Positions 15,740 through 53,026 of a DNA stretch of 54,041 nucleotides are shown piece after piece. Every line of letters begins with the position of its first letter. The first letter of the stretch is position 1. The notes under the pieces are model-generated. The model ran no database searches. It was not told the DNA's origin and worked only from the letters and a program-made list of their open reading frames with translations. A program made the translations under genes and the position numbers. The DNA is from a virus, in the IMG/VR virus record IMGVR_UViG_3300005914_000010, positions 1 to 54,041 of that record. One strand, given 5' to 3'.

Positions 15740-16187
15740 TGTAATACGTAATAAATTTTACGACAGAGATGGAGTATTGTATACCAGAAGAGGTAATAAA
15801 CCTGCTGGTAGTATAGGCTCCGGTGGTTACTTGAACATTAGGGTTGATATTGACGGTAAAAGAAATAACTGGAAGGCCCATAGAGTCATGTGGTTATTAT
15901 ACAACGATTCAATACCTGATGTACTTGATCACATAGATAGAAATAAACTAAATAACGCTATCATAAACCTACGGGAATCAAACCCTGAGGAGAATGCCCG
16001 TAATAAAGGCGAGTATAGCAATAACACTTCTGGAATGTCAGGTGTCTCACCAAGAGGCAATGAATGGAGAGTACGTCATAATTGTAATCATATTGGTTAC
16101 TACGACACTTTTGAAGAAGCGTGTACAATAAAAACAATACCTTATGGAGAATTAAAGAATGTTTGCACAAGCAACGAAAACAGGTAA
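15723..16187 (+). CDS. Free-standing HNH homing endonuclease with AP2-like tail, 154 aa
   Basis: Contains the HNH signature: a histidine in WKAHRVMWLLY, then DHIDRNKLNNAIINLRE (HNH core with N and the usual D-H-I-D-x-N spacing), followed by an AP2-like DNA-binding segment (GMSGVSPRGNEWRV then GYYDTFEEA). Such endonucleases cut alleles lacking them and spread by repair. It is wedged between the DNA polymerase and the next gene, overlapping the first by 17 and the second by 29 bases. The C-terminus after EEAC diverges from the usual AP2 ending, so it may be truncated. Confidence 0.8.
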   Translation: MIRFINVIRNKFYDRDGVLYTRRGNKPAGSIGSGGYLNIRVDIDGKRNNWKAHRVMWLLYNDSIPDVLDHIDRNKLNNAIINLRESNPEENARNKGEYSNNTSGMSGVSPRGNEWRVRHNCNHIGYYDTFEEACTIKTIPYGELKNVCTSNENR

Positions 16188-16932
16188 CGGTGGAAGTGGA
16201 GTGAAGATGACTGGGAATATCCTAGATCCTGGCTCCTATCCTGCAAGAGTAGTACAAATAGTTGACCTAGGTATGCAACCTGGCTCATCAATTTATCCTG
16301 AACCTAAACTCAAAATGGAAATGCGTTTCGAACTACTAGACGAATTTATGGTAGACGAAGAGGGCAAAGAATTAGAGAGTAAGCCTCGCTGGTTTAGTTA
16401 CGAACTTACTTATAATGCTGATGGATATATGGGTGAACGCTCTAATATTTCTAAAGTATTTGAAGCCTTAGACGGATTTGATAAGCCTTTGCCAGAACTA
16501 CTTGGTAAAGCTTGCAATGTAGCAATTGCAAAGGGTGTCAAACAAGACGGTAAGACACCCAAGAATAAGATAACTGGTGTAGCAGCGATGCGTCAAAAGG
16601 ATGTAGATAAGTATAAAGATACACCGCTACAAAACCCTACCACTTACTTCTCTCTGATGACACCCGATATGGAAGTATGGAAGAAATTATCCAGCAAAGG
16701 TCAGTATTCGCAACAGAGCAAAATCAAAGCTAGCTTAGAGTTACATCTAACACCACTTGCTGCTTTACTTGCTACACTGAATGGCGAGAAACCTAAGGGA
16801 GAAGAAGATGGTGAACACGACCCAATTTTACAAAACGAAGATAGCACTAGTAGTGATACTGAATCTGGGACTACGCCAGATGAACCAGATGAACCAGGTA
16901 AAGTCGACGCAGCAGCAGACGTATTTGATTAA
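16159..16932 (+). CDS. Candidate single-stranded DNA-binding protein with acidic tail, 257 aa
   Basis: The beta-rich core (about residues 15-200) opens with GNILDPGSYPARVVQIVDLG, followed by strands KLKMEMRFELLDEF. The last 45 residues are Glu/Asp/Ser/Thr-rich and end in DVFD. A beta barrel plus an acidic C-terminal tail is the architecture of phage ssDNA-binding proteins such as T7 gp2.5. The position directly downstream of the polymerase fits. The assignment is by architecture and context, not by a diagnostic motif. The start overlaps the HNH gene; ATG 16159 has GGAGAATTAAAG upstream. Confidence 0.6.
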   Translation: MFAQATKTGNGGSGVKMTGNILDPGSYPARVVQIVDLGMQPGSSIYPEPKLKMEMRFELLDEFMVDEEGKELESKPRWFSYELTYNADGYMGERSNISKVFEALDGFDKPLPELLGKACNVAIAKGVKQDGKTPKNKITGVAAMRQKDVDKYKDTPLQNPTTYFSLMTPDMEVWKKLSSKGQYSQQSKIKASLELHLTPLAALLATLNGEKPKGEEDGEHDPILQNEDSTSSDTESGTTPDEPDEPGKVDAAADVFD

Positions 16933-16942
16933 GGATTGACTA

Positions 16943-17521
16943 ATGATTTTAGCAAGAGAGCTACTGAAGGAATTAAGAGATAGAAATATTCCAGCATGTG
17001 TTGCAGGTGGATATGTACGCGATATGATTCTAGGGCGAAAGCCTAAAGACATGGACGTAGTAGTATTCGGTGACCATGTCAATAGAAGAATTATTGATTG
17101 GCATGATGCTGCCACAATACTGACTGATGTAACTCATGAAGTACAAGAAGGCATATTAATAATTACAGACGAGAGAGGAATTGCGTCTTACCCTGTGGAT
17201 ATAATTCAACATTTATTCAAAGGTAAATACAAAGGAATGGATGTAGACTTAATATTCTACAAAGAAGTATACTTTAATGCTACAGCGGTAATCGACTCAT
17301 TCGACATGAGTATCAACCAAGGTTACATTACGGAAAAAGAATTTAAAGCTCCAGATGTAACAACATTAAAACTAAATAATTTAGCTCGTTGTACAGAAGC
17401 TAGAGTGGTAAAAGGTTACAATATGATAATGGATAATTATTGCAAGAATCATAACATATTGATACCTGGAGCTACCAATATGCATCCTACTCCTAAAGGA
17501 GTGACCCCATGCATGAAATGA
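16943..17521 (+). CDS. Nucleotidyltransferase of the CCA-adding/poly(A) polymerase type, 192 aa
   Basis: The N-terminus carries AGGYVRD (residues 21-27), then D-M-D at 36-38, the metal-binding pair of class II nucleotidyltransferases, and a third candidate in MDVDLIFY. At 192 residues it keeps the catalytic head and little of the RNA-binding body of a full tRNA nucleotidyltransferase (about 400). Substrate is unknown: an RNA 3' end, a protein or a nucleotide are all possible. Overlaps the exonuclease gene by 13 bases. Confidence 0.8.
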   Translation: MILARELLKELRDRNIPACVAGGYVRDMILGRKPKDMDVVVFGDHVNRRIIDWHDAATILTDVTHEVQEGILIITDERGIASYPVDIIQHLFKGKYKGMDVDLIFYKEVYFNATAVIDSFDMSINQGYITEKEFKAPDVTTLKLNNLARCTEARVVKGYNMIMDNYCKNHNILIPGATNMHPTPKGVTPCMK

Positions 17522-18543
17522 CCCCACCCGAAGAGTTCGACACTCTATTGTTAGATGGTGATCTGTTATTATTCTCAAGTTGCGCTGCTATTGAATATGG
17601 CAACGAACCTGAGAACGTGCAGTTCAACCAGATTGCTAATAATATGGATGCCCGTATTATGAACATGAAGCGAAGACTTGGTGCTAAACGTATAATTGTA
17701 TTGCTATCTGGTAAGAGGAACTTCAGATTTGTTGTTCAGCCTGACTACAAAGCGAACCGTAAAGATGCTTGGCGACCATTCAATCTTGCCAATGCTGTAG
17801 CATATATGGAGAATCAGTATGAGTGCATCAAAACAGATGGGCTAGAAGCTGATGACTATTGCGCTATACATGGGAGTGAAGATCCAAATAGTGAGTACGG
17901 TGTAACTGTAACATGCACTATTGATAAAGATATTCCTCAGATAAATGGTTGGCACTATAAGTGGGAGACTCAACACGCAGGTGAAAAGTTATTCCACGTT
18001 GGCGGTTATGGTAATCTAAACTGTCAAATTAAGTCAGGTAACAAGAAGAAAATTACTGGCGACGGTAGACGATTCTTCTTCTGGCAACTACTGACAGGTG
18101 ATCCAACAGATGGTATCATGGGTTGCGGCAAGCAGACACGAGGCGTGTATAAAACTGGTAAGAAAGCTGGTGAAGGATACACTAAGCGTGTGGGTGTAGG
18201 TGCTGTACAAGCTTACGAGTTATTACAATATGCACAGACCCCTGCTAAATGTCTACATATCGTTATGGAAGAATACAAGAAAGTATTCAAAGAACAATGG
18301 CAAAGTGAGCTCATTATGAACGGTAGATGTCTACACATGGTAGATACTATTAGTGAAGATGAGAATATGATTCGCCTGTGGACGTGGCATGAAGAAATAA
18401 ACGACAGGTTACTCGCTGCTGAATTTTTAGACCTGACTAAACAGAAAGTATCTGTTGAAACAGTGCTAAAGACATGCAATTATTGCATTGAACAATCATG
18501 GTTCAATATCGACAAACAAGAAATCTGTAGAATGGAGGGGTAG
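17509..18543 (+). CDS. 5'-3' exonuclease / flap nuclease (T7 gp6-like), 344 aa
   Basis: FEN/T7 exonuclease-like architecture. The first acidic motif is LLLDGDLLLF; then YKANRK (the arch lysine/arginine segment), GLEADDYCAI, CTIDKDIPQ and LTGDPTDGIMG, followed by a helix-hairpin-helix-like GVGAVQAYELL. It removes RNA primers and processes recombination ends, and in T7 also degrades host DNA for nucleotide reuse. Length is similar to T7 gp6 (300) with a C-terminal extension. Ribosome binding site AAAGGAG precedes ATG 17509. Confidence 0.88.
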   Translation: MHEMTPPEEFDTLLLDGDLLLFSSCAAIEYGNEPENVQFNQIANNMDARIMNMKRRLGAKRIIVLLSGKRNFRFVVQPDYKANRKDAWRPFNLANAVAYMENQYECIKTDGLEADDYCAIHGSEDPNSEYGVTVTCTIDKDIPQINGWHYKWETQHAGEKLFHVGGYGNLNCQIKSGNKKKITGDGRRFFFWQLLTGDPTDGIMGCGKQTRGVYKTGKKAGEGYTKRVGVGAVQAYELLQYAQTPAKCLHIVMEEYKKVFKEQWQSELIMNGRCLHMVDTISEDENMIRLWTWHEEINDRLLAAEFLDLTKQKVSVETVLKTCNYCIEQSWFNIDKQEICRMEG

Positions 18544-24498: not shown

Positions 24499-24963
24499 AT
24501 GTCTGAACAATGGAAGGTAATGAAGAATGGCAGATTTAGTGTATCTTCAAAGGGTAAAGTCTATAACTGGATGAAAGATAGATTTGTGATACAATGGCAA
24601 TCCAACGGATATAACAGAGTATCGCTACAGATAGAAGTTAACAAGAGGAAAAAATATTCTGTTGCTAGACTAGTAGCACTGGCCTTCTTACCTAATCCAT
24701 TGAAACTGAAAACAGTCGATCACATAAACGGAATAAGAAATGATAACCGTATTGAGAATTTACAATGGCTATCCCGTGGTGACAATGTTATAAAAGAGCA
24801 AGCAGGGTATTATTCATTAGTAGATCCTAAAGGTAGAACCATTGAGATATTTAATATGGAGGAGTTCTGTAGAAATAATAATCTTGATTCTGCTAATATA
24901 CATAGAGTGATGAAGAGCAGGCAAACTCATCATAGAGGGTGGACTAAATGTCAGAATATATAG
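24499..24963 (+). CDS. Free-standing NUMOD4-HNH homing endonuclease, 154 aa
   Basis: The N-terminal NUMOD4-like segment (residues 1-35) is followed by HNH residues around KTVDHINGIRNDNRIENLQWLSRGDNV and a C-terminal NUMOD-type helix-turn-helix (IFNMEEFCRNNNLDSANIHRVMKS). These modules define phage homing endonucleases. It lies between the ribonucleotide reductase and terminase genes and overlaps the terminase start by 16 bases. The gene next to it carries an intron, so it could also act on the intron-free terminase site. Ribosome binding site AGGAG. Confidence 0.85.
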   Translation: MSEQWKVMKNGRFSVSSKGKVYNWMKDRFVIQWQSNGYNRVSLQIEVNKRKKYSVARLVALAFLPNPLKLKTVDHINGIRNDNRIENLQWLSRGDNVIKEQAGYYSLVDPKGRTIEIFNMEEFCRNNNLDSANIHRVMKSRQTHHRGWTKCQNI

Positions 24964-25838
24964 ACGAACAGTATGACAAGTTCTTAACAAACTGTATGAT
25001 ACAGAATTACGGGGACTTGTTGAAGGTAAGCAGATCTAGAGGCATAAATAGGACTCTCCCATTATTGAGAAATTACTTAATTGGGAATAATAAAGTAAGG
25101 GAAGAATACCTTTTCGCAATAAGAAGCGAGATGGAAGGTCAGAATATACTTGACCACAAGGTCTTGAATTCAATCATTGATGCACAGTTGAAATCTTTCA
25201 CCGAGGGTGAGAAGAAGAATAACAAGATGTACTCCGATGAGATAAAGAAAATCATAACTGAAGGTGACGCTGAAAAGAATGCAGATGGTACCGTAAGGGT
25301 AGCCAACTCAGACAAGAAAGCTCCATCATTAGTAGATAAAATTATCAAAGACCCTCTACTCGTGGATTATACTAAAGTAACAACCGAAGATGCTAACGCT
25401 GTTCGGGATATACTTATGAATGATAAAGACGGTTTTGAACAGTTTAGTAAATGGTGCTTCCAGATTCAAATGAATTTTAAATTCCAGCATCAAGACTTTC
25501 ATTCAGTCATATTCGAGTTCTGTCAGAAAATAGTGCATGGAGAAATAGACAGAGGTATTGTAACGATACCACCGCGACACTCAAAGACGCAAATACTATC
25601 TATATTCTTACCATTGTATTCGTTCTGTTATAATCCAACAAGTCATAATATTATCACATCCTATGCTGATGATGTTGTTCAAGAATCTAGTGGCTATATC
25701 AGGCAAGTGATGACTGATAACTTATTTCAGAAGATATTTCCAACTGTGAGAATTGATCCAAATAAGCGTTCACTAGAACGTTGGGGAACAACCAAAGCGG
25801 GTGTAATGCATGCAGTGCCAACTGGCGGTAAAATGACT
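24948..25838 (+). CDS. terL: Terminase large subunit, exon 1 (residues 1-297)
   Basis: The ATPase motor that packages DNA. Exon 1 includes a long N-terminal extension (about residues 1-170) that may stand in for a separate small subunit. Then come the ATPase Walker A-like loop IPPRHSKTQ (about residues 205-213) and an intervening core ending in AVPTGGKMT. The last codon before the intron (ACT, 25836-25838) is exactly at a codon boundary. Read-through would add only seven residues before a stop, so splicing with exon 2 (from 26742) is needed for a working enzyme. Confidence 0.88.
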
Positions 25839-26741
25839 CAACCTTCGGGTCATTTAAAACTTACTTAATTCGGTGAATCTCTCAACACGTAGTGGTGGAG
25901 ACAATACCGAGCTAGGATTCTTTATACGATTATCGAAACCGAGTGTAACGACTATCCCGCAAGGGAGTAAGGCTCAAGTGAGCTTGAAACAGTAAGATTA
26001 GTATGAATCTAATAAGATATAGTCTAATCTTCATAGAAATATGGAGGCTTTATGCTTAAATACAATATAATAAATACGGGTGACATCTTGGAGAATAATC
26101 AAGGTGTAGAGTTGATAGTGTTAGAAATAAAAAGAGCACCAAAAAGGTGTGTAATAGAATTTACTAAAACTAAGACTAAAAAAGAAGTGGCCTTTCAACA
26201 CTTGAGATATGGGAAAGCTAAAGACCCCTATCATAAAGTACGATACGGAGTAGCGTGTTTAGGTAACCCACCGAAATACGCTGTAGAAGATTATAGGCGC
26301 TGGGATAATATGATTGAAAGATGTTATAACGAGCGTGGGCAATACACGAGTTACGAAGGAGCGACTGTCTGTGAGAGATGGTTGTGCTTCGAATACTTCC
26401 TTGAAGATTTGAAAAATATGAATGGTTATGGATTACCCAATAGACATTTAGATAAAGACCTCAAATCTCACAAGAAAATATATAGCTTGGAGAACTGTCA
26501 ATTAATAAATAATCAAGAAAACTCAAGTCATGGAAAGTTCCAAGAACAGCATCAATGGGTAGCAACCAGTGGAGGAGGTACAGTTATAAAAGCTGCAACA
26601 TCCTCAGAGTTAGGAAGATTACTACAATGTGCTGCAAGTACCATTAGGCAGAAAATGACTGATGGCTACTTAGTAAAAGGTTCTTGGAAAATAACACAAG
26701 CATAAACAGTCAAGAGTCACGAACTTGATTTAATATAAATG
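25839..26741 (+). mobile_element. Group I intron interrupting the terminase gene, 903 bases
   Basis: P1 is visible: exon AAATGAC (25831-25837) pairs with GTCATTT (25849-25855), and the exon's last T (25838) pairs with G25848, the conserved U-G at the 5' splice site. P4 pairs TCGGT (25870-25874) with ACCGA (25906-25910). P7 pairs GACTAT (25950-25955) with ATAGTC (26019-26024), in a conserved AAGATATAGTC context. The intron ends in G26741. Joining 25838 to 26742 restores the terminase consensus (GGKMT-GKGAGLL) in frame. It carries an endonuclease gene at 26052-26705, so it is a mobile intron. Confidence 0.9.
26052..26705 (+). CDS. Intron-encoded homing endonuclease, 217 aa
   Basis: Lies inside the terminase group I intron. 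The central block YRRWDNMIERCYNE, then ATVCERWLCFEYFLEDL, then HLDKDLKSHKKIYSLENCQLINNQEN is the HNH-related pattern of phage intron endonucleases (LDKDL for the H/N core). A C-terminal helix-turn-helix (LGRLLQCAASTIRQKMTDGYLVKG) would bind the target. It cuts intronless terminase genes so that the intron copies itself. Ribosome binding site ATGGAGG. Confidence 0.8.
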   Translation: MLKYNIINTGDILENNQGVELIVLEIKRAPKRCVIEFTKTKTKKEVAFQHLRYGKAKDPYHKVRYGVACLGNPPKYAVEDYRRWDNMIERCYNERGQYTSYEGATVCERWLCFEYFLEDLKNMNGYGLPNRHLDKDLKSHKKIYSLENCQLINNQENSSHGKFQEQHQWVATSGGGTVIKAATSSELGRLLQCAASTIRQKMTDGYLVKGSWKITQA

Positions 26742-27863
26742 GGAAAAGGGGCAGGGTTACTATCTACTGAATACGCAGGTGTATTTGTAGTAGACGATGC
26801 AATAAAACCCAAAGACGCGTATTCTAATACGATACGAGCAGAAATAAATGACCGTTTCGATAACACTTTTCAATCGCGTTTAGCGAACGATGGAGTTGTA
26901 CAAGATGACAACGGTAATTTGATAGAATGTCCTAGAACACCTATGGTTATAATAATGCAGAGAGTGCATGATGAAGATCTAGTTGGACATATACTAAGAG
27001 GTGGCAGTTCAGATGAATACGTTTGGCTTAATATACCAGGAGTAGTCACGCCAGATTGTGGTACCAAGAAATGGTACGATACTCTTATTAAAGGTCAGGC
27101 CTACACTCATGCAATACCTTATTTGTATGACTTAAAACGTGAAGAACCACTGTCTGCCTTATGGCCAAGCCGTAAAAGCTTGCAATCTCTTTTAAGAATG
27201 AAAGAGTCCAATCCATACACTTTTAATTCACAGTATCTCGGAGATCCAACCGCTAAAGGTACAGGTCTCGTGGACGGTGATTGGTGGGTTGAATACGAAG
27301 AATTAGATAAAGCGAATATAAAGCGTACTTTCATGACGGCTGATACAGCGTCAACGAAGCAAGATTATTCCGATTACTCCATAGTTTGCCTATGGGGAAT
27401 TACTAGGGATAATAAGCTTATCTTAATAGATATTATAATAGGGAAGTGGGAGACACCAGAATTGAAAATAGAATTGATTAAATTCTGGAAGAAACACACG
27501 GATAATTTTGATGTCAATTTCCCCTTGTTATTGCCTACGGCATTATACATGGAGGATAAATCAAGTGGACAGTTCTTAAACCAACAGTTTGCTAGAGATG
27601 GCGCGATCAGAGTTCTACCAATTCCCAAAGATAAGAGCTCAGGGGATAAAGTCGCTAGATTCCTTAATACTGTACCTTATTGGGCACAGGAAAGAATATT
27701 AATGCCAGCAGAACATAAGCATAAAGCCCACATAATGCGGGAAACATTGAATATGACAGGCCTCGGCAGCGGTACAGGACACGATGATTTCATCGACAAT
27801 GTATCGGACGCTGTAGTAGTTGCATTTAGTGCTCCCTCAGCAAATTATGATTTATGGGCATAG
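26742..27863 (+). CDS. terL: Terminase large subunit, exon 2 (residues 298-670)
   Basis: Continues the motor after splicing. It starts GKGAGLLSTEYAG, then Walker B VFVVDDAI with its acidic pair, and a C-terminal RNase H-like nuclease domain with the aspartate in FMTADTAST, a second acidic residue in ALYMEDKSSGQ and a third in GHDDFIDNVSDA. All expected catalytic acids are visible, so the spliced protein of about 670 residues looks functional. ATG at 26739 straddles the splice site and would not give a complete enzyme on its own. Confidence 0.88.
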   Translation, partial: GKGAGLLSTEYAGVFVVDDAIKPKDAYSNTIRAEINDRFDNTFQSRLANDGVVQDDNGNLIECPRTPMVIIMQRVHDEDLVGHILRGGSSDEYVWLNIPGVVTPDCGTKKWYDTLIKGQAYTHAIPYLYDLKREEPLSALWPSRKSLQSLLRMKESNPYTFNSQYLGDPTAKGTGLVDGDWWVEYEELDKANIKRTFMTADTASTKQDYSDYSIVCLWGITRDNKLILIDIIIGKWETPELKIELIKFWKKHTDNFDVNFPLLLPTALYMEDKSSGQFLNQQFARDGAIRVLPIPKDKSSGDKVARFLNTVPYWAQERILMPAEHKHKAHIMRETLNMTGLGSGTGHDDFIDNVSDAVVVAFSAPSANYDLWA

Positions 27864-33850: not shown

Positions 33851-35266
33851 ATGAGTATACCTATTTCTCATGTAGTAAGTGTCAATATCTCATTGTCGCC
33901 TACTGCAATCCCACTTAGAGGTTTCGGTCAACTAGCAATGGTTACTGACGAAACACCTGAAGTGGCTGGAGGCTTTAATGTAATTGAACGTATTCGTACG
34001 TATGGTTCGTTAGCCGCTGTCAATGTAGACTTCTTGACAGGTACTGAAGTATCTAACGCTGCGACATCTTACTATGCCCAAAAAGCAGAACTATTTTCTG
34101 TAGTATTAGCTTCGGATAGCGTAACAGCTGGTAAGTTAATCGGTGGACCAACTGATACTTTCGCGAATATTAAATTGATAACCACCGGAACACTAGATAT
34201 AACAGTAGACGGTGTACTGGACGAAATCACTGGGCTAGACTTTAGCGCAGCAGCTGATGAGGATGCTGTAGCAGTTATACTATCAACTGCACTTACAGAT
34301 GCCACTTGCTTATACGTTGGTACAATCTTTGAAATCACGTCTGACACAACTGGAGTAACTTCAACAGTAAGCTTCCCCTCAATCAGTGATGCTGCGACAG
34401 CATTAGGATTAGTGGTAGGCGCTTCAACTGAAGATGGCCTAGGCATTGAAACTCCTGCGGAAGCTTTAGCAGCTGCATACGCAATAACTAGAGACTTCTA
34501 TGGCGTAGTACTAAACCGTAAATGGCGTGATGATGATGCTAGTATAGACGTAGCGACATGGGTCGAAGCAAGTGAACGAGTATTCTTCAACACTTCCAAT
34601 AACCCTAGCAGCTTAACCTCTAGCACTAATCACATCATTGCAGACCTAAAAGCTATGACATTAGATCGTACCTTATCCTCTTACAGTTCTACACCTGCTG
34701 AATACCCTTCAGCCTCTGTTGCTGGCAGAGCATTCATTGTCAACTTTGAAGGTACTAATACTACCATTACGTTGAACTTGAAACAAGGTCCAACCATCAC
34801 TGTTGAAGATATGACTTTAAACCAGAAGTTAAATCTTGAGTCACATAACGGTAACGCTTTCGTTGTAATAACAGGTGTGAACGTTTACTCAGACTCCCGC
34901 ATGTCAAGTGCTAAATGGTTTGACTCTATTCACGGTACGGATTGGTTAGTAAACCGTGCTGAGACAGATGTATTCAATGTGAAGTTTCAATCTAATACTA
35001 AGATACCTTACACAGATGCTGGTGTTACAGTGTTGTATCAGGCCTTAGAAGGTGCATTACGACAGAGTGTAACAAATGGTTTAGTTGCACCTGGCAATGA
35101 TTTGGAAGGTAACTTCATGCCATTAGGTTATGAAATAACTGTTATTCCAGTCTCACAGGTTAGCCCTGCGGACAAAACGAACCGTATTTATCGTGGTCTA
35201 AGCTTCAAAGCTGCAGGTGCCAATGCCATTCATGGTAGTGTTATCTCTGGCGATTTTAACGGTTAA
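33851..35266 (+). CDS. Contractile tail sheath protein (DUF3383 type), 471 aa
   Basis: Long sheath subunit: the N-terminus MSIPISHVVSVNISL is the typical DUF3383 opening. A central variable domain, then ANNPSSLTSS-like helices and the C-terminal half ending in FKAAGANAIHGSVISGDFNG. It forms the contractile outer tube. Together with the tube gene it makes the tail myovirus-type, at odds with the podovirus-like replication genes. Confidence 0.87.
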   Translation: MSIPISHVVSVNISLSPTAIPLRGFGQLAMVTDETPEVAGGFNVIERIRTYGSLAAVNVDFLTGTEVSNAATSYYAQKAELFSVVLASDSVTAGKLIGGPTDTFANIKLITTGTLDITVDGVLDEITGLDFSAAADEDAVAVILSTALTDATCLYVGTIFEITSDTTGVTSTVSFPSISDAATALGLVVGASTEDGLGIETPAEALAAAYAITRDFYGVVLNRKWRDDDASIDVATWVEASERVFFNTSNNPSSLTSSTNHIIADLKAMTLDRTLSSYSSTPAEYPSASVAGRAFIVNFEGTNTTITLNLKQGPTITVEDMTLNQKLNLESHNGNAFVVITGVNVYSDSRMSSAKWFDSIHGTDWLVNRAETDVFNVKFQSNTKIPYTDAGVTVLYQALEGALRQSVTNGLVAPGNDLEGNFMPLGYEITVIPVSQVSPADKTNRIYRGLSFKAAGANAIHGSVISGDFNG

Positions 35267-35277
35267 GGAATAAGTAA

Positions 35278-35733
35278 ATGAAACAGTATAGTTTTTATAA
35301 CGTAGACTTATTAGTCGACGGTGTCACAATGGATGGTTATTCAGATAGCGCTGCAATCATAACCGCATCTCGTGCTGCTCCACAACATGGCAAGGTGATG
35401 GATGCGCGTGGTAAGATGGTAACAATAACATCTGCTGATAAATCAGGTGTAGTTACATTTGATCTATTACAAACATCTGATAGTAACACATTTATGCAAA
35501 CCTTAGCTTTAGCGTCTCATGATGCTGGAACTTCTGGTGCATCAGATGTGTTCCTACCTGTTCAAGTAATGTTGAATGACAAGATGGGTAAGACAGTAGT
35601 AACAGGTGTTAATGGTTTCATTACCATGCAACCTGGTATTGTCCGTGGTACTGGTATAGCAACCAATACTTGGGTAATGGAATTCGAACAGATATGGATC
35701 CTTCGTGGTCTATCTGAAACTGTAGGCGTATAA
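35278..35733 (+). CDS. Tail tube protein (DUF3277 type), 151 aa
   Basis: Contains YNVDLLVDGVTMDGYSDSAAII and GKMVTITSADKSGVVTFDLLQTSDSN, as in inner-tube proteins found next to DUF3383 sheaths. It polymerises inside the sheath. Length and context fit. Good ribosome binding site. Confidence 0.82.
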   Translation: MKQYSFYNVDLLVDGVTMDGYSDSAAIITASRAAPQHGKVMDARGKMVTITSADKSGVVTFDLLQTSDSNTFMQTLALASHDAGTSGASDVFLPVQVMLNDKMGKTVVTGVNGFITMQPGIVRGTGIATNTWVMEFEQIWILRGLSETVGV

Positions 35734-35748: not shown

Positions 35749-36153
35749 ATGGCAGCTAAAGATATAACTGGGATTATCAATGAAAAACCCGTGTTTGTCA
35801 AACAGTGGCCTGCTACCAAAGCCTTAGAGAATCTTAGTAAAGCTCTTTCAACATTCGGTCCTAGGATTGGTCCGTTTGTTGAAGGTAACTTTCTAATGGG
35901 TGACATAGTCTCCCTCTTAGATACCTCGGAAAGCGAAGTAGTAGTATCATTATTAAAAGAATTTGTATCTTCTGCAAGAATGGATGGTATAGAAGTAACA
36001 CCAGTACTGTTCGATAAGTACTATACAGGTGATTTATTATTTGTATTCAAAATATTCTCGTTCGTTTGTGAAGTGCAGTACAAAGATTTTTTCGAGCAAG
36101 GGCAGCGTCTAAAAGAAACCCGCCCAGAGCAAACTCAGAAGACGAAGAATTAG
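35749..36153 (+). CDS. Tail assembly chaperone, short (unshifted) product, 134 aa
   Basis: Helical protein in the place of the tail assembly chaperone (between tube and tape measure). It reads to TAG 36151. The frame directly -1 to it carries a convincing coding extension, so this is the short member of a G/GT-type pair. The slippery heptamer TTTTTTC lies 20 codons before the stop. Confidence 0.8.
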   Translation: MAAKDITGIINEKPVFVKQWPATKALENLSKALSTFGPRIGPFVEGNFLMGDIVSLLDTSESEVVVSLLKEFVSSARMDGIEVTPVLFDKYYTGDLLFVFKIFSFVCEVQYKDFFEQGQRLKETRPEQTQKTKN

Positions 36154-36356
36154 ATCCTCTGGAAATAAAACCACTTGGCCTTCAAGAATTATTTCCGAAT
36201 ATAGATTTCTATTTGTATCGACCAATGATTGAAGAGCCGAGATTATGCGATCTACATCAATTACAAGACGGCACTTATAGTCTATATGACTTGTATATGT
36301 TTCATGAGTTACTAGACTTGAGGGAGCATATAAAAGAATCTAACAAGAAGGTTTAA
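35749..36356 (+). CDS. Tail assembly chaperone, -1 frameshift product, about 202 aa
   Basis: If ribosomes slip by -1 at TTTTTTC (36087-36093), translation continues in the other frame to TAA 36354. The extension includes EDEELDPLEIKPLGLQELF and RPMIEEPRLCDLHQLQDG, a well-formed protein segment with no start codon or ribosome binding site of its own. That frame is open from 36072, so the shift must occur between 36072 and 36153. Such a long/short pair, needed in a fixed ratio to load the tape measure, is known in many phages. Confidence 0.75.
36087..36093 (+). promoter_or_regulatory. -1 programmed frameshift slippery site
   Basis: T-TTT-TTC in the chaperone reading frame matches the X-XXY-YYZ rule with all-U pairing retained after slipping. 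It is the only such heptamer in the overlap window of the two frames. Confidence 0.7.
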
Positions 36357-36359
36357 ATT

Positions 36360-39300
36360 ATGTCGACAAACAAAGGAACACTAACTTTAGGTGGTGGAAG
36401 AAGTAGAAAACCTAGAGTTAAGAAAATGCCAGAGTGGTTAGATAACCCTACTAAAAAATATGGCTACAGTAGTACAGATTCTAATACGCCACAACAAGAT
36501 AGAAGTAGAAGCTTAAGTTCAGGCTCCGGCGTAAATTCAGGTTTCTTTGGAGAAGATGATAAAGAGCTATCCCAAATGGGATGGCACTCTGATTCAGTTA
36601 TCGAAACATTTAACTCAACTACACCAGAACAAATAGCCGCTAGTAGAATATCAGGTGGTGGGCCAAGTGCAATACAATCATTTATATCTAATGCTGCAGA
36701 AGCTAAGAAGCTATTGGCATCAGGTATAAGCCCAATTTCATTACAGCATAGTAATATACCCTCTGAGAAATTAGCTTACATGGCTAACTACGCAGGACTA
36801 GATATAGGGAAAGTATCAAGAGAGGTAGCTGCAGGAGCTAATAGAAGCTGGCCTAGTAGTGAAATGAATAATCCTGATAATGACAAAGATAGTGATACAC
36901 CAGAGCAAGACTTCAATAAGGCACTAACTCAAGCTCAGATTAACGGGACGGAGTATAGAGAGAAAGGCTTCAATAGATCTGTGAAAGGAGAAACCATAGG
37001 TGGTATAGATCAACCATCTATTAAGTCACCCACAGATTATATGTTATCGACCTTCGGAGCTATGACTATATCTAAGGATATAGGTAAGCAACAAGTAGGT
37101 GCTCCTGATTCCATATCAATGGGGCTACAGGAGAAATATGATAAAAAGGTTGCCAACTCAACTAGAGCGTTAGCGAACCTTGCTGACTTATATCTACCAA
37201 AAGGCTCAGGTAGGGGATTGCAAAATGAAGTCATTACCGCGTTAGGCCAAATACTACCTCAAAGTATATCGAACGTAGGCTTCAACATGGCTGGTAACCC
37301 TGACGCACAGATACCGTGGTCAAGCGCTTTACCCATGGCTAATCAATTAGCTGTGTCTAAATCAACTTTAAGCATAATGAATAACCCTACGGTTAACTAC
37401 GCTAACAGACCTGGAATAAATGCTAGCATAAAGAATGTGAAGCATCTATTCAATACTTCAAATGAAGGTGGTCTATCAAGAAAAAGAAGTACCGACTACT
37501 TTGCAGCGAAATATATGGCTGATGAATTAGCAGCAGGTGGTATGGATGTTAGACATACTGTTCTAAGTCAAAATTCGAGTAGAGACCATATGTATGAGTT
37601 CAGAGTAACAACTGACATACGTGAACAAATGAAACAAGGTATGGAGTTGTTAGGTATGAATTCAGAAGATATGAGAGACCCAAAGAAAGTAAAACTACTA
37701 AAAGAGACTATAGAGTCAGGATTAGATAGTGATAAAGCTATAGTTGCAAGTGCCAAGGCATCAACAAATGCTAGAACGAATGTAGCTCACACAATGGAAG
37801 AACAAATGGCCGCTAGTCAAATGGCGCATAGGTCTTTCGTTGCAGCGCGTGAACAAGAAAAGATAATGACCCAGAGTGCTCTCAACTCAGAGATGGTAGC
37901 CAAACCTGACAGTCAACAGTCAAACAGACTATTGACCCTATCTGAGAAACTAGATGCTGCTATAAATTCGCCAGTATCCAGAATAAATAGTATAAACTCG
38001 ATGTTTGGAAGAGACGTCGACGGCAAATATAGGACACCCTTAACACCTATTGAGAATAGTTCAATACAATCTCTGACTGGTAATATGCCTCCATCAGGCG
38101 GACCAAATCCGCATTCTAGACCTCCTAGAGTAGGAGGCGGTACTAAAAATACACCATCGATAGGGAGAGAGGGTACATCGTTATTATCACCAGCTGATGC
38201 ATTGGCAAAGTACCAAAAGAACAATCCCCATATGACAGGATTCGTTGGTGATGGTAAGAATGCTTACGGTGAAGTGGATGAAGGCCAACATGCACTATGG
38301 CAAGCCGCTAGGAAAGGAAAACTATCTTCTTCTATAGCTGCTGGCATGGCGGGTGAACTATCTGCAGATACAGATAAAGCGATTAGTAAGGTTATAAGGT
38401 CAGGCCTCGGTATAAAAGAGAAAGACTTCGATGGAAACTCTTTTACAGAATCAGGCAACAAATTAGAACCTTTGGCACTAGATTGGTATAGACGTACTCG
38501 TGACTCTTCGACCTTTGAAACTGGACATATGGAAAACAGAAACATGCCAGGGCAATCAACTACCCCTGATGCAATGGCAGATGGTGGACGACGAGCAGTA
38601 GAAGTTAAGTCTAGAGATAGTCTTATGGATCCCAACAATCTAAAAGATAGTGAACTAAAAGCTTTTAGAAAGTACAATATGCAGATGCAACATCAGATGT
38701 ATATTACAGACAATGCAAGTGCTGATCTAGTTCAAGTCAGAAGGGGGAGTGGCAATAAGAACCAACTCTTCAACATGACTGGTAACGACAAAGAAAACTT
38801 TCGTTCAGATACTGTAAGTCGTGACCAAGAACTAATTGGTAGAATGTCACCTGTATGGAACAGAGTTGGAGCTAACGCTGAGAAGATAGCGGGCCTTGGC
38901 AAGAAAGAACAGGACGCTTTAGCTAAAGCTGTTGAAACAGGTAACATAAAATCTTTCGAGAAATTGTCTGCTAAGCACGGTCTAGATGATGCAGTCGTTG
39001 GTGGCGCATTAACTAAAGCTGGTGGCGGTGGAGGTGGGAGTGGCGGTGACGGAAAAGACTTAATAGACACTATTGGTGCTCAACATGGGCCAACCTCTTT
39101 TACTGGCGTTGCTAAAACTGCATTATCCAGAACAAGAACCGGCCGTGGTCTCAATGTAGCTAGCATAATAGCTGGCATAGCATGGGACGGAGCCAAATCT
39201 CTAAACGACACTAACCTTAACACGGCTTTCCAAGCAAAATCCTCTGGAATGTCAGAAGATATGTGGATAGGCCAAAGAAAAAGATTGGCAGGGAGTGGTT

Positions 39301-39998
39301 ATCAGACTGGTGCTCAAGCAGCCCAAGATATAAAATCTCTTGGATTGGCCACAGGCGGAATGAGCTTAGGATTCACTGAAGGCGCTGAACGTATTGTAGG
39401 AGGTACAAGAGGTTTAATAAACTTCAACGATCTAGGTACATATGAAGGCGACGCAGCAGGATTGATGGCTAAATTTAAAGAGAAAGCGGCTATAAGATTC
39501 GGTACTGGGGAAGATGCTTTAAGAAAAACAGCTGCTATGGCTGAACAGTCTGGACTTAACGGACTAGTAGCAACAGAGCAAAATGATGATGACTTAAAGA
39601 ACATGAATGAAGCCTTCCTGAGAATGGATTCTAATCTAAAGAAACTGGCTAAGAGTGCTGGTGAAGGATTCGGGGATAGTATAGCTTCCATAGCAGATAG
39701 TGCTGCTTGGTTAGTAGGCTTGTTTGGTGGAGATGTAGGTGGAGATGGCCCAGAGACAGTTCTGAGCAATACTTCTAGTGGTAAATTATCAGCTAGGTTA
39801 AATGGGATAAGTGACGCGGATATAACTAAATACAAGAACATGAGTCAAGAAGCGTCAAAACTAACAGAACAAGAGAATAAAGCCAAAAACGCTGAAGTCA
39901 CTATCAAATTAACTAGTGAGGCTAAGAGATTATTCTTACTAGATAACGACGGTAGAGCCAACTCAACTGAGGCATACGGTAACAACAATGGGTGGTAG
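36360..39998 (+). CDS. Tape-measure-position protein with embedded YqaJ-like PD-(D/E)XK nuclease domain, 1212 aa
   Basis: The longest gene of the tail block, directly after the chaperone, where the tape measure lies. Residues 1-640 are low-complexity, polar and helical. Residues about 645-830 carry a PD-(D/E)XK nuclease pattern of the YqaJ type. E703 lies in GNKLEPLALDWY, D737 in TTPDAMADGG, E748-V-K750 in RRAVEVKSRD, and Q775/Q777/Q779 in YNMQMQHQMYIT. Then a Gly-rich linker (about 895-905) and a helical C-terminus with few strongly hydrophobic segments. Nuclease motifs inside a tail length-determining or ejected protein are unusual. The C-terminal half could enter the host with DNA. Confidence 0.8.
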   Translation: MSTNKGTLTLGGGRSRKPRVKKMPEWLDNPTKKYGYSSTDSNTPQQDRSRSLSSGSGVNSGFFGEDDKELSQMGWHSDSVIETFNSTTPEQIAASRISGGGPSAIQSFISNAAEAKKLLASGISPISLQHSNIPSEKLAYMANYAGLDIGKVSREVAAGANRSWPSSEMNNPDNDKDSDTPEQDFNKALTQAQINGTEYREKGFNRSVKGETIGGIDQPSIKSPTDYMLSTFGAMTISKDIGKQQVGAPDSISMGLQEKYDKKVANSTRALANLADLYLPKGSGRGLQNEVITALGQILPQSISNVGFNMAGNPDAQIPWSSALPMANQLAVSKSTLSIMNNPTVNYANRPGINASIKNVKHLFNTSNEGGLSRKRSTDYFAAKYMADELAAGGMDVRHTVLSQNSSRDHMYEFRVTTDIREQMKQGMELLGMNSEDMRDPKKVKLLKETIESGLDSDKAIVASAKASTNARTNVAHTMEEQMAASQMAHRSFVAAREQEKIMTQSALNSEMVAKPDSQQSNRLLTLSEKLDAAINSPVSRINSINSMFGRDVDGKYRTPLTPIENSSIQSLTGNMPPSGGPNPHSRPPRVGGGTKNTPSIGREGTSLLSPADALAKYQKNNPHMTGFVGDGKNAYGEVDEGQHALWQAARKGKLSSSIAAGMAGELSADTDKAISKVIRSGLGIKEKDFDGNSFTESGNKLEPLALDWYRRTRDSSTFETGHMENRNMPGQSTTPDAMADGGRRAVEVKSRDSLMDPNNLKDSELKAFRKYNMQMQHQMYITDNASADLVQVRRGSGNKNQLFNMTGNDKENFRSDTVSRDQELIGRMSPVWNRVGANAEKIAGLGKKEQDALAKAVETGNIKSFEKLSAKHGLDDAVVGGALTKAGGGGGGSGGDGKDLIDTIGAQHGPTSFTGVAKTALSRTRTGRGLNVASIIAGIAWDGAKSLNDTNLNTAFQAKSSGMSEDMWIGQRKRLAGSGYQTGAQAAQDIKSLGLATGGMSLGFTEGAERIVGGTRGLINFNDLGTYEGDAAGLMAKFKEKAAIRFGTGEDALRKTAAMAEQSGLNGLVATEQNDDDLKNMNEAFLRMDSNLKKLAKSAGEGFGDSIASIADSAAWLVGLFGGDVGGDGPETVLSNTSSGKLSARLNGISDADITKYKNMSQEASKLTEQENKAKNAEVTIKLTSEAKRLFLLDNDGRANSTEAYGNNNGW

Positions 39999-40001
39999 AG
40001 T

Positions 40002-41093
40002 ATGTATAAACGAAGAATAAAATTAGTTGCTACAGACTTCGTCACGAAGGAAGAATTATTCTCTACAGCAGAGCATAGAATTTCATTCTCAGTCGATGTC
40101 AATATCGCCCAAGGTATGTCTAATGCAACTGTCATAATATACAATCTATCTGATGATGAGACAAAAGATCTAACCAGAGCAGACTTAGAACCTATAGGTG
40201 ATAATGACGCAACAAATAATAGAACACTGAATAAAATACGTATTCAGTTATTTGCTGGTTACGAAGACGATATAGACGGTGAACTGAGTGGTGCCCAATT
40301 GATGATAGAGGGGTTTGTAATGAACTCCACTACTGTTAAAAAGCTACCTAGTAGACTAACCTATCTGTATATAATTGCTTATGGTAGTAACATACTTATA
40401 AACAAATACGAGTCCTTCACTGTGAAAGATAGTGACAAGTTCACACTGCAAGATGTAATAACCAAGATAGGTGTATCTGCAGGTTATGATAAGGAAGCAA
40501 TAGACTTTGACTCAGTGGACCCAGTATTCTTAGGCGAGAAAACCATAGAGCATCTCAGAGGCAAGACTTTTCAGAATGATGAGAGAGGAATGTTTAAAGT
40601 CTTAGATGAACTAGCTAATGAATTCCAATTCTCATGGAGCATAAGAGCTAAGGGTATAGGAATATACCCTATCTTGAAAGATACTAAAATTGATTCACAT
40701 GAATTCGGATACTTACAGAAGAACGGCACTGCCTTAGTAATTGACCCTATCAGAGTTAAAGGAACACCCATAGCAGGCATGGCTACATTGGAAATAGAAT
40801 ACGCGTTAGATGCAACACTATTCCCAGGAACAGTTATAGATGTAGGTGAGATTCAAGGTAACAGTTATAACGACTCCTTACCTTCTAAAGGATTAATAGA
40901 CTACACTGCTGTAGGTAAGCCTGTATTCTACTCTGATGACGTAGCGAGATACGCTGTATTCCAGAAGTATATGTTATGGAGAGTAATACATAAAGGTGAT
41001 ACGCATGGAGACCAATGGAGTTCAACATTGGTTTGTAAAGTACCATCAGCAGGATACACAGCAGATGGGGAACTTAATGTCAAGACTAAATGA
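40002..41093 (+). CDS. Baseplate hub-type protein, 363 aa
   Basis: Beta-rich protein with the opening KRRIKLVATDF and ISFSVDVNIAQGMSNATVIIYNLSD, resembling the hub proteins that cap contractile tail tubes in this gene order (tape measure, hub, Dit-like, spike). No enzymatic motif. Its end is overlapped by 17 bases by the next gene. Confidence 0.7.
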   Translation: MYKRRIKLVATDFVTKEELFSTAEHRISFSVDVNIAQGMSNATVIIYNLSDDETKDLTRADLEPIGDNDATNNRTLNKIRIQLFAGYEDDIDGELSGAQLMIEGFVMNSTTVKKLPSRLTYLYIIAYGSNILINKYESFTVKDSDKFTLQDVITKIGVSAGYDKEAIDFDSVDPVFLGEKTIEHLRGKTFQNDERGMFKVLDELANEFQFSWSIRAKGIGIYPILKDTKIDSHEFGYLQKNGTALVIDPIRVKGTPIAGMATLEIEYALDATLFPGTVIDVGEIQGNSYNDSLPSKGLIDYTAVGKPVFYSDDVARYAVFQKYMLWRVIHKGDTHGDQWSSTLVCKVPSAGYTADGELNVKTK

Positions 41094-48615: not shown

Positions 48616-48963
48616 ATGAATTTATCAAAATGGAAAGACGACTTTTGTCTTAGAGTAAGATTAAATAAGATTTACATATGCCCTGCTGCTATTAGATTTA
48701 TTAACAACCCCATGTCTGCTGGAAGTAAAAAGAAATATGTTAGAGGTGTATGCTCCTTTCTAAGGGCACAAGGTCTACCAAAAGAGCTTGAGAAATTTGA
48801 GCATTTGTTTGTAGAAAAGATGACTGAAGTAGTTGTAGAAGTAACTCCTGAAGTAACTCCTGAAGTAACTCCTGAAGTAACTCCTGAAGTAATTCCTGAA
48901 GTAACTCCTGAAGTAACTCCTGAAGTAACTGAAGAAAAGACTACCGAAGACGAAGAAGATTAA
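48616..48963 (+). CDS. Hypothetical protein with EVTP repeats, 115 aa
   Basis: An N-terminal globular segment (about residues 1-72), then EVTPEVTP... tandem repeats and an acidic end (TTEDEED). The repeat part is encoded by seven 12-base units. Such Pro/Glu/Thr repeats form rigid, extended spacers, as in TonB-like proteins. Function unknown; it sits in the lysis region. Confidence 0.7.
   Translation: MNLSKWKDDFCLRVRLNKIYICPAAIRFINNPMSAGSKKKYVRGVCSFLRAQGLPKELEKFEHLFVEKMTEVVVEVTPEVTPEVTPEVTPEVIPEVTPEVTPEVTEEKTTEDEED
48838..48921 (+). repeat. Seven 12-base tandem repeats (GAAGTAACTCCT)
   Basis: Units at 48838, 48850, 48862, 48874, 48886 (one C-to-T change, giving EVIP), 48898 and 48910, with a partial eighth. 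In frame, so copy number varies the protein length in steps of four residues. Confidence 0.95.
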
Positions 48964-50605: not shown

Positions 50606-53026
50606 ATGGATTACTCCTTATTTTTTGACGGGTCCGGGTCCCTCGGTATTTCGGGGGTTAAATTACATACCAAGAGTTTTCTTACCAATTTCGAGTACGA
50701 ACTAACCGCTTTCTTTGGAAATACTGGTTATGATAAATTAACTATTGTAGGTAAAAACTTTAGTAGTAATGGTTTCATAAGCCTAACTCCCACAGCTTGC
50801 GCTATAAAACATGGTAACAAACTCGGCACCATTGTTACCATTCCTATTACCCTTAGTTTTAATGACACTACACAAGTCATTAAAATAACTAGAAACGGTA
50901 GCAACTATACAGTTCTCAGTGATGGCGTTTCAATCGGTTCTAAAACAGCCTCACCATCGAATAATGAAAATTTACTAGACCGTATAGGTTCATCTGGATT
51001 TTCAGACAACAGCGACGGCAACAGAATACAAAGACTGATATACCGCGAGGGTTCACCATTAGTAGATGTCCACGACTGGGATGCTAGTTCTAGTGGCGGT
51101 ACGGGTACTACGATTACCGACTCAATTGGTGGCAATACCGCAACTCAGATAGGTACATGGCCAGCAGATGATAGCGAGTGGTATTTAGAAGGAGGGGCAG
51201 CCGTTCCTGTCGGAGTCCCGTCAATCGGTACGATCACAAAAACCGAGACAACCGCTTCAATCCCTTGGACTTACACAGATGGCGACGAAACCGGTTTTGA
51301 ATATCGACTAGATGCAGGGACTATTATAGATGCAGGGACAAGCCCATTATCATTAACAGGGCTGACAGCCAGCACTTCGTACGATGTTGAAATTAGGGCG
51401 TATAACGCAACTGGTGATGGTAGTTGGTCGAGTGTTACAGCGTTTACTACTGAAGATGCGGCAGTGGTTACAGAGGGTAACTTAGCAGTACAAATGGTAA
51501 GTAATACGGTATCTGCGATTGGTATAATAGGCCAAGCCGTGACAGGTCAACTGGATAAGTCATTAGATATAAATGAGCTTAACTCAGACGGTATAATAGG
51601 CCAGTCTATATTAGGGGGCCTAGACGGGTTACTTGAATCAGATAACTTATTTTCTCAAGGGGAAATAGGTCAAGCGATATCGGGATCTCTCAGTGAGTTA
51701 CTAAACAGCAGCTCTTTAACATCAGTGGGTGTTATAGGAAGTGATATAGTAGGTGTGCTAAGTGGGCAGATAAGTAATAGTACCCTTATAGCAGGGGGTT
51801 CCATTGGACAAGCTATAGTAGGGGCACTAAGTAGACAACTTGATATCAATATATCAAATATAGATGGAACCGTAGGGTCGGCAATACTGGGTTCTATGAA
51901 TGTAGAATTCGATGACACTATATTGATATCTGACGGTACTATTGGTCAGGCTATAGCAGGCTCTATAAGTGAATTATTAGAAGACAATACATCTTCTATA
52001 TCAGGAGTTGTAGGTCAAGCTATTACTGGAGCATTGAACAAACTATTAGATAATAGTACTCTTACTTCGAGTGGAATTATAGGCCAAGCCATAACAGGTG
52101 CTCTAAATGAATTACTAACAAGTAACAAATTAACGGCAAGTGGTGTTATAGGTCAAGCAATAGTAGGCTCGTTGAGTGAGCTACTAGAAGATAATAATCC
52201 ATCCATAGCTGGGGTTGTAGGTGAAGCTATAGTTGCAACACTAAATGCCCAACTAGATGGTGATACTATAGATGCCAATGGTGTCATAGGGCAAGCAATA
52301 CTAGGAGCGTTAAGTGAACAACTAGACGTAAATACACTTAGCTCAACTGGTGTAGTAGGCAACGCCATTGCAGGCTCTTTAAGCATACAATTAGATGATA
52401 CTATATTGTTAGCTGACGGTATAATAGGCCAAGCAATAAATGCTACCTTGAATGCAAACAACGCTGATAATAAATCTACTATAATTGGGACTATTGGACA
52501 AGCAATATTAGGAGCATTAAGTGAACAACTCGATGTAGATATACTTAGTGCCACTGGTACTATAGGTAGTGACATTGCTGGTTCACTTAGTATTAAATTA
52601 GATAACAACATATTATTAGCGAATGGAGTGATAGGTCAAGCAATAATTGCTACTCTAAATACTACAAATGCTGATAATACATCTGTTATAATTGGGACTA
52701 TTGGGCAAGCTATTGCAGGTACTTTGGAAATAGATGCAGAAGATGTTAACCTAGAAGCACTTGGTGTTACAGGAATAATATCTGGAAGTGTCAATATCCA
52801 GCTAGAAGATGGTACATTATTATCCGCTGGCTTCTTAGGCTTGATAACTGTAGGCTGTAATGATATATCAATAAGTTTCGAATTTGTAAACCCTGATATA
52901 AATATTGACGCTGGGCAACTAATAAGTTTCGAATTTGTAAACCCTGATATAAATATTGACGCTGGGCAACTAATAAGCAACAAAGAAGAAGCAGACATAA
53001 ATATAGGAGATGTACTATGCGTTTAA
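50606..53026 (+). CDS. Large virion-surface repeat protein with FN3-like domain, 806 aa
   Basis: Residues 1-200 are beta-rich, LamG/jelly-roll-like, with segments such as YRIYREGSPLVDVHDWDASSSG. Residues about 205-290 resemble a fibronectin III domain (TTASIPWTYTDGDETGFEYRLDAG, then LTASTSYDVEIRAYN). From residue 306, nineteen 23-residue repeats (G-x-IGQAI-x-G-x-L pattern) run to about 742. A perfect 17-residue duplication lies near the C-terminus (ISFEFVNPDINID). Repeats of this type could build a stacked beta-solenoid or fibre shaft; the repeats end in a short C-terminal tail, not a known fibre knob. Confidence 0.78.
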   Translation: MDYSLFFDGSGSLGISGVKLHTKSFLTNFEYELTAFFGNTGYDKLTIVGKNFSSNGFISLTPTACAIKHGNKLGTIVTIPITLSFNDTTQVIKITRNGSNYTVLSDGVSIGSKTASPSNNENLLDRIGSSGFSDNSDGNRIQRLIYREGSPLVDVHDWDASSSGGTGTTITDSIGGNTATQIGTWPADDSEWYLEGGAAVPVGVPSIGTITKTETTASIPWTYTDGDETGFEYRLDAGTIIDAGTSPLSLTGLTASTSYDVEIRAYNATGDGSWSSVTAFTTEDAAVVTEGNLAVQMVSNTVSAIGIIGQAVTGQLDKSLDINELNSDGIIGQSILGGLDGLLESDNLFSQGEIGQAISGSLSELLNSSSLTSVGVIGSDIVGVLSGQISNSTLIAGGSIGQAIVGALSRQLDINISNIDGTVGSAILGSMNVEFDDTILISDGTIGQAIAGSISELLEDNTSSISGVVGQAITGALNKLLDNSTLTSSGIIGQAITGALNELLTSNKLTASGVIGQAIVGSLSELLEDNNPSIAGVVGEAIVATLNAQLDGDTIDANGVIGQAILGALSEQLDVNTLSSTGVVGNAIAGSLSIQLDDTILLADGIIGQAINATLNANNADNKSTIIGTIGQAILGALSEQLDVDILSATGTIGSDIAGSLSIKLDNNILLANGVIGQAIIATLNTTNADNTSVIIGTIGQAIAGTLEIDAEDVNLEALGVTGIISGSVNIQLEDGTLLSAGFLGLITVGCNDISISFEFVNPDINIDAGQLISFEFVNPDINIDAGQLISNKEEADINIGDVLCV
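51521..52831 (+). repeat. Nineteen in-frame 69-base (23-residue) diverged tandem repeats
   Basis: Consensus around GVIGQAI-x-GAL-x-x-L-x-x-x-x-L-x-x. Copies 1-13 and 15-18 are clear; copies 6, 14 and 19 are most diverged. Repeat units differ considerably in DNA, so the array is old and under selection, unlike the perfect 51-base duplication downstream. Confidence 0.9.
52871..52972 (+). repeat. Perfect 51-base tandem duplication
   Basis: Units 52871-52921 and 52922-52972 are identical and keep the frame; each encodes ISFEFVNPDINIDAGQL. Perfect identity implies a very recent duplication (or an assembly-relevant slippage). Confidence 0.95.

Follow-up and report, generated by a model that had tools for sequence, protein, structure and literature searches.

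Enzymes of the lambda Exo type start digestion at linear duplex ends that carry a 5' phosphate (PMC7496540). We describe here a nuclease domain that resembles lambda Exo and LHK-Exo in fold, active site and 5'-phosphate pocket, and that is encoded by IMG/VR virus record IMGVR_UViG_3300005914_000010, a stretch of 54,041 nucleotides analysed over its whole length and referred to below as the window. Unlike lambda Exo and LHK-Exo, this domain sits within a tail protein of 1212 amino acids (aa) occupying the tape-measure position, has no adjoining annealase gene and lacks counterparts of lambda Exo R45 and K49. Tape measures with peptidoglycan-cleaving (SLT) domains likewise carry a catalytic domain, but its substrate is the cell wall, whereas the substrate predicted here is DNA. 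To our knowledge, the enzymes known in tape measures cut the cell wall. The BtI1 baseplate hub, which contains a staphylococcal nuclease domain (PMC2147016), is another tail protein with a fused DNase domain; that case differs in fold and in the protein involved, and is a single one of unclear role, whereas the window nuclease recurs across a phage family.

The closest described counterparts are the Chaseviridae tape measures grouped in PHROG 149 'exonuclease' (Pahsextavirus, Yushanvirus, Vibrio phage VPs20) and, for the Cleopatravirinae, in PHROG 19855, which share gene, position and domain order with the window protein. The latter is 27-33% identical to the named members of the Nefertitivirinae and represents a divergent lineage, its closest distinct relative being a metagenomic contig at 48%; it also differs from the Cleopatravirinae proteins in having no C-terminal SLT transglycosylase. 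Members of these families are labelled 'exonuclease', 'putative endonuclease', 'yqaJ', 'tail fiber' or 'hypothetical protein' in databases, and such inconsistent public labels hide the connection between nuclease and tape measure. The domain is therefore already known in databases, while its link to the tape measure or to ejection appears new, as no paper making that link was found in a literature search that was thin on subscription journals. The preliminary description of the window, made from its letters alone, called a DNA nuclease domain in a tape measure unusual; the feature is not confined to this phage but family-wide. A conserved DNA exonuclease in the tape measure of a whole family, detected in the virions of at least one member, implies a possible role of the ejection apparatus in DNA-end processing, which bears on the fate of injected genome ends, on encounters with RecBCD-type defences and on the roles of tape measures inside the cell.

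The tape-measure-position protein carries an embedded lambda Exo/YqaJ-type nuclease

The 1212-aa protein is encoded by the open reading frame (ORF) at 36360-39998 (+ strand), in which the preliminary description had proposed a YqaJ-like nuclease from residues E703, D737, E748-x-K750 and the Q775-x-Q-x-Q motif; this residue numbering is correct, the two motifs reading E748-V-K750 and Q775-H-Q. Pfam PF09588 (YqaJ) matched residues 647-784 (38298-38711) with an E value of 9.9e-14 and 52.3 bits, against a curated cut-off of 22, and further matches were obtained with PHROG 149 'exonuclease', a family of long proteins (E 2.9e-83), and with PHROG 434, a RecE-like exonuclease (E 2.8e-15). Searched against PDB as a single sequence, the window protein yielded too weak a match, and strong matches required a family profile: the profile of 18 orthologues retrieved LHK-Exo (3syy) with an E value of 8e-26 and lambda Exo (1avq) with 6e-11.

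AlphaFold2 modelling of residues 607-880 (38178-38999, + strand) from 20 sequences reached a predicted local distance difference test score (pLDDT) of 91.8 and a predicted template modelling score (pTM) of 0.89. The solved structure closest to this model was DNA-bound lambda Exo (3sm4; Z 17.6 over 200 residues at 3.3 A), and LHK-Exo scored Z 17.4. Fold prediction of this region had been named beforehand as a point on which the proposal could fail, and it returned a lambda Exo-type fold. Profile, fold, conserved residues and gene position all agree, which confirms that the window protein carries an embedded lambda Exo/YqaJ-type PD-(D/E)XK nuclease domain. In a model spanning 1200 residues, the nuclease was the sole confident mixed alpha/beta domain, set apart from the helical parts by stretches of predicted disorder (pLDDT <50). 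These comprise an N-terminal linker at residues 510-605 (37887-38174) and a C-terminal glycine-rich linker at residues 877-967 (38988-39260) that contains GGGGGGSGGDG, both on the + strand; as modelled, the nuclease has the appearance of a tethered cargo module.

Active-site and 5'-phosphate-pocket residues are invariant

Mutational analysis of lambda Exo has probed E85, D119 and K131 in the active site and W24 and R28 in the 5'-phosphate pocket (PMC7496540). The pocket residues correspond to W647 and R651 of the window protein (38298-38312), and the active-site ones to E703 (E85; 38466-38468), D737 (D119; 38568-38570) and E748-x-K750 (E129-x-K131; 38601-38609). Q775, the equivalent of Q157, opens the helix motif Q775-H-Q-H-Q-M780 (38682-38699); all these codons lie on the + strand. 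The equivalents of W647, R651, E703, D737, E748, K750 and Q775 were invariant in 21 of 21 embedded domains and in 13 of 13 free-standing exonucleases, and among the embedded domains this invariance of active site and pocket extends down to ~20% domain identity. Thus, conservation of E703, D737, E748 and K750 among homologues, which the initial proposal had put forward as a check, was complete in the 21 tape-measure-position proteins.

An alignment of 18 tape-measure-position orthologues further showed Q775, Q777 and M780 to be invariant. Only 12 of the 155 domain positions were invariant in the 18-sequence alignment, and W24, R28, E85, D119, E129 and K131 of lambda Exo were all represented among them (P = 5e-8 by a simple count that ignores relatedness). 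The nuclease domain also ranked among the best-conserved portions of the whole protein. Judging from these alignments, this is probably a catalytically active nuclease with specificity for DNA ends. The trivial explanation of a chance motif was ruled out by profile match, fold and residue conservation.

The gene occupies the tape-measure slot of a Chaseviridae-type genome

The genes around the 1212-aa ORF, all on the + strand, run in the order sheath, tube, tail assembly chaperone, 1212-aa protein and baseplate hub. The tail sheath (33851-35266) matched PHROG 205 tail sheath (E 6.5e-98), and the tail tube protein (35278-35733) was assigned by its match to PHROG 280 virion structural protein (E 1.2e-34), its position and the naming of its equivalent in phage 4HA13 as tail tube. 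The zero frame of the tail assembly chaperone (35749-36153) matched PHROG 11820 tail assembly chaperone (E 1.3e-38). An in-phase slippery heptamer, T_TTT_TTC, at 36087-36093 precedes an open -1 extension of the chaperone (together 36087-36356, stop codon at 36354-36356), a layout suggestive of programmed -1 frameshifting. The -1 frame ends at 36356, shortly upstream of the ATG of the 1212-aa gene at 36360, and the baseplate hub follows at 40002-41093 (PHROG 196 baseplate hub, E 5.3e-28). The nuclease-bearing gene is the only long gene between a chaperone with a -1 frameshift layout and the hub, which is the slot of a tape measure, and its same-slot orthologues are annotated tape measure protein in the 4HA13, PP101 and Mangalitsa records.

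As to the genome itself, we took as hallmarks of Chaseviridae a myophage genome of ~50-56 kb, an early T7-type RNA polymerase and a conserved tail module. The window, of 54 kb, has a T7-type RNA polymerase (PHROG 414) early on, at 1264-3393, encodes DNA polymerase A, a primase-helicase and a major capsid protein, and presents the same tail-module order as LA93P1 and ST32; by gene content, it belongs to a Chaseviridae-type myophage. Tail lengths in Chaseviridae range from 110 to 130 nm (PMC8472413) and would call for ~730-870 helical residues at 0.15 nm each, which is roughly consistent with a 1212-aa protein having residues to spare for the nuclease and its linkers.

The fusion is shared by both Chaseviridae subfamilies

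Nefertitivirinae phages that infect Aeromonas, Shewanella and Vibrio encode full-length homologues. Tape measures of the Cleopatravirinae, a group of E. coli, Erwinia and Pectobacterium phages (ST32, 4HA13, Y2, GJ1, PP101, Faunus and others), contain the same nuclease at a full-length identity of 17-18% to the window protein. The three Cleopatravirinae tape measures that were scanned (L005, L006 and L007) all have a C-terminal SLT transglycosylase beside the YqaJ-type nuclease, and no SLT match was obtained in the window protein or in the LA93P1 tape measure. The nuclease of Y2 was detected by PHROGs and missed by Pfam. Two more metagenomic lineages (L037/L055 and L039/L048-L054) encode a 1190-1270-residue protein with the nuclease in its middle, and in L037 and L039 the sheath-tube-chaperone-hub order surrounds this protein wherever the contig shows it. 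When 34 domains were placed in a tree, those embedded in tape measures fell on one side of a branch (support 89/81), a topology that tentatively fits a single acquisition of the nuclease, long branches being present. Taken together, the occurrence in both Chaseviridae subfamilies and in two divergent lineages marks the nuclease-tape measure fusion, by sequence comparison, as an old, family-wide trait.

A contig-specific fusion or an assembly error was ruled out, since the same architecture is found in isolated phages of Aeromonas, Shewanella, Vibrio, E. coli, Erwinia and Pectobacterium. The L037/L055 and L039/L048-L054 contigs come from myophages with a Chaseviridae-like tail module and had no full-length relative in the phage collection; they are possibly new family-level groups. 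The GenBank records of Spp001 (Shewanella) and pAh6-C (Aeromonas) show the tape-measure gene split into two or three frames, with relatives intact; the Spp001 interruption falls within the nuclease domain, and the breaks in both records are possibly sequence errors. A tblastn search with one homologue (P0003) retrieved 276 records, including low-identity Mycobacterium and Arthrobacter phages, which may reflect its SLT domain.

Virion presence of an orthologue and a proposed role in resecting genome ends

Among the top twelve proteins listed from liquid chromatography-tandem mass spectrometry of CsCl-purified 4HA13 particles, the tail tape measure protein came second (PMC9699118). The run of gi numbers (1735348871 for the major capsid protein, which is QEM43033.1, and 1735348880 for the tape measure) identifies the detected protein as QEM43042.1, that is, L005:8684-12298, which has both the YqaJ and the SLT domain. 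Labelling of lambda gpH by TurboID-ManZ indicates that a tape measure can get as far as the inner membrane in the course of injection (PMC13190303). Extrapolating from the related proteins, the genome of this phage probably enters the cell accompanied by a virion-borne enzyme that processes DNA ends. The early suggestion of delivery with the genome is backed by the detection of the 4HA13 orthologue in particles (PMC9699118), and passage into the cytosol would be a further step.

We tentatively favour a reading, plausible if far from assured, in which the tape-measure or ejection protein leaves the particle together with the genome and its tethered lambda-Exo-family nuclease resects DNA ends, most plausibly those of the entering phage DNA. 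The domain would act as a 5'-to-3' exonuclease on 5'-phosphorylated duplex ends, it would exit the tail together with the DNA at ejection, and its substrate would be the end of the entering genome, the only one that a tape measure can count on encountering. The termini of Chaseviridae genomes are long direct repeats (PMC8472413), of 3120 bp in 4HA13 (PMC9699118), so that resection of the 5' strands would bare complementary 3' strands of these repeats for annealing, and the annealed repeats would allow the genome to circularise or recombine prior to phage gene expression. Several free-standing relatives of the domain do adjoin annealases in recombination modules. By contrast, the neighbours of the embedded nuclease are tail genes, and because it has no adjoining annealase we class it as a lambda Exo homologue and not as part of a two-component recombinase. 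That this phage family carries a recombination exonuclease within its tail tape measure, making genome delivery and end resection a single step before gene expression, is a broader proposal that we regard as possible but rather doubtful.

Several observations weigh against end resection on entry. A PHROGs scan of ~30 window ORFs revealed no annealase of the Bet/RecT/Erf type, so the annealing partner would be either missing or unrecognised. The lambda Exo channel residues R45 and K49, which are linked to DNA handling in the ring, had no clear counterpart in the compared domains, which renders ring-type processivity doubtful; the quaternary form of the embedded nuclease may differ from the lambda Exo ring. 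Several folded copies of the nuclease would be crowded within the tail tube, through which a folded domain would have to pass. The AlphaFold model of 1200 residues scored a pLDDT of 54 overall, with low confidence outside the nuclease. Finally, a simple hydrophobicity threshold revealed no typical transmembrane helix in Chaseviridae tape measures, and one region in L055; myophage tape measures may, on the other hand, be devoid of transmembrane segments. Direct terminal repeats were not found in the window contig. A 257-aa protein at 16159-16932 was considered as a single-strand-binding partner and gave no PDB or Pfam match.

Alternative roles of the embedded nuclease

Instead of resecting the phage's own ends, the ejected enzyme could serve as a scavenger or weapon that degrades linear DNA in the host, from a broken chromosome or competing phages, for nucleotides or exclusion. 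The conserved active site and the location of the orthologue in the 4HA13 virion (PMC9699118) would suit such a role, as would the ribonucleotide reductase and deoxynucleoside monophosphate kinase encoded by the phage, to which nucleotide supply therefore matters. We nonetheless consider it unlikely, since the virion brings only a few copies, the phage has a separate PHROG 107 exonuclease at 17509-18543, and the conserved W647/R651 pocket implies a start at 5'-phosphate ends, so that intact circular DNA of the host would make a poor substrate. As regards the attack on host or competing DNA envisaged in the preliminary description, an enzyme type that requires 5'-phosphorylated DNA ends, as in the end-specific chemistry of lambda Exo, is unlikely to attack intact host DNA, whose degradation is thus not supported; broken DNA or the DNA of competitors may still be used.

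Less probably, the domain is a clamp that binds the leading end of the genome, inside the tail or above it, and keeps it aligned for ejection, with cutting rare or unneeded. The tape measure adjoins the leading DNA end and the 5'-phosphate pocket is invariant, both as such a clamp would have it; however, D737, E748 and K750 are the same in all 21 proteins, and neither the metal ligands nor K750 are expected in a pure clamp. It is improbable that the nuclease acts at assembly, trimming or resolving DNA where head and tail meet as the particle matures; a tape measure is built into the tail ahead of head joining, and DNA would become reachable only afterwards. A precedent for this assembly-stage activity is T4 gp4, a virion-associated nuclease of restriction-enzyme fold required for packaging (PMC7824862). 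An inactive structural recruit, retained as a spacer or folding unit, had been another early suggestion; the low-confidence linkers on both sides could betray an accidental insertion, but the invariance of all catalytic and 5'-phosphate-pocket residues in 21 proteins, to ~20% domain identity and with the P value given above, renders it very improbable. Weakest of all, a different virion protein in the tape-measure slot would explain the missing transmembrane helix, a 1200-residue model without one continuous rod and the lack of any tape-measure profile match to the window protein in Pfam or PHROGs, but it is very unlikely given that the interval from chaperone to hub contains no further long gene, that orthologues are named tape measure in three phages, and that the length roughly fits a 110-130 nm tail (PMC8472413) if ~800 residues form a rod at 0.15 nm each.

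Other features of the window

The terminase large subunit appears, as read by eye, to be split between ORFs 24948-25868 and 26739-27863, with an unrelated 217-aa ORF (26052-26705) between the halves and an HNH-like ORF (24499-24963) just upstream; the region 24948-27863 looks like a terminase gene interrupted by a homing element or intron. Beyond the tail genes and near the contig end, 53330-53668 encodes a short staphylococcal-nuclease homologue of 112 aa (Pfam SNase, PHROG 452 endonuclease). A 12-bp tandem repeat at 48800-48955 encodes the (PEVT)n tail of a small 115-aa ORF located downstream of the endolysin gene. The 806-aa protein encoded at 50606-53026 contains many repeats of ~23 residues (IGQAI/GALNELL type; 69-base periodicity) and is probably a tail fibre or adhesin.

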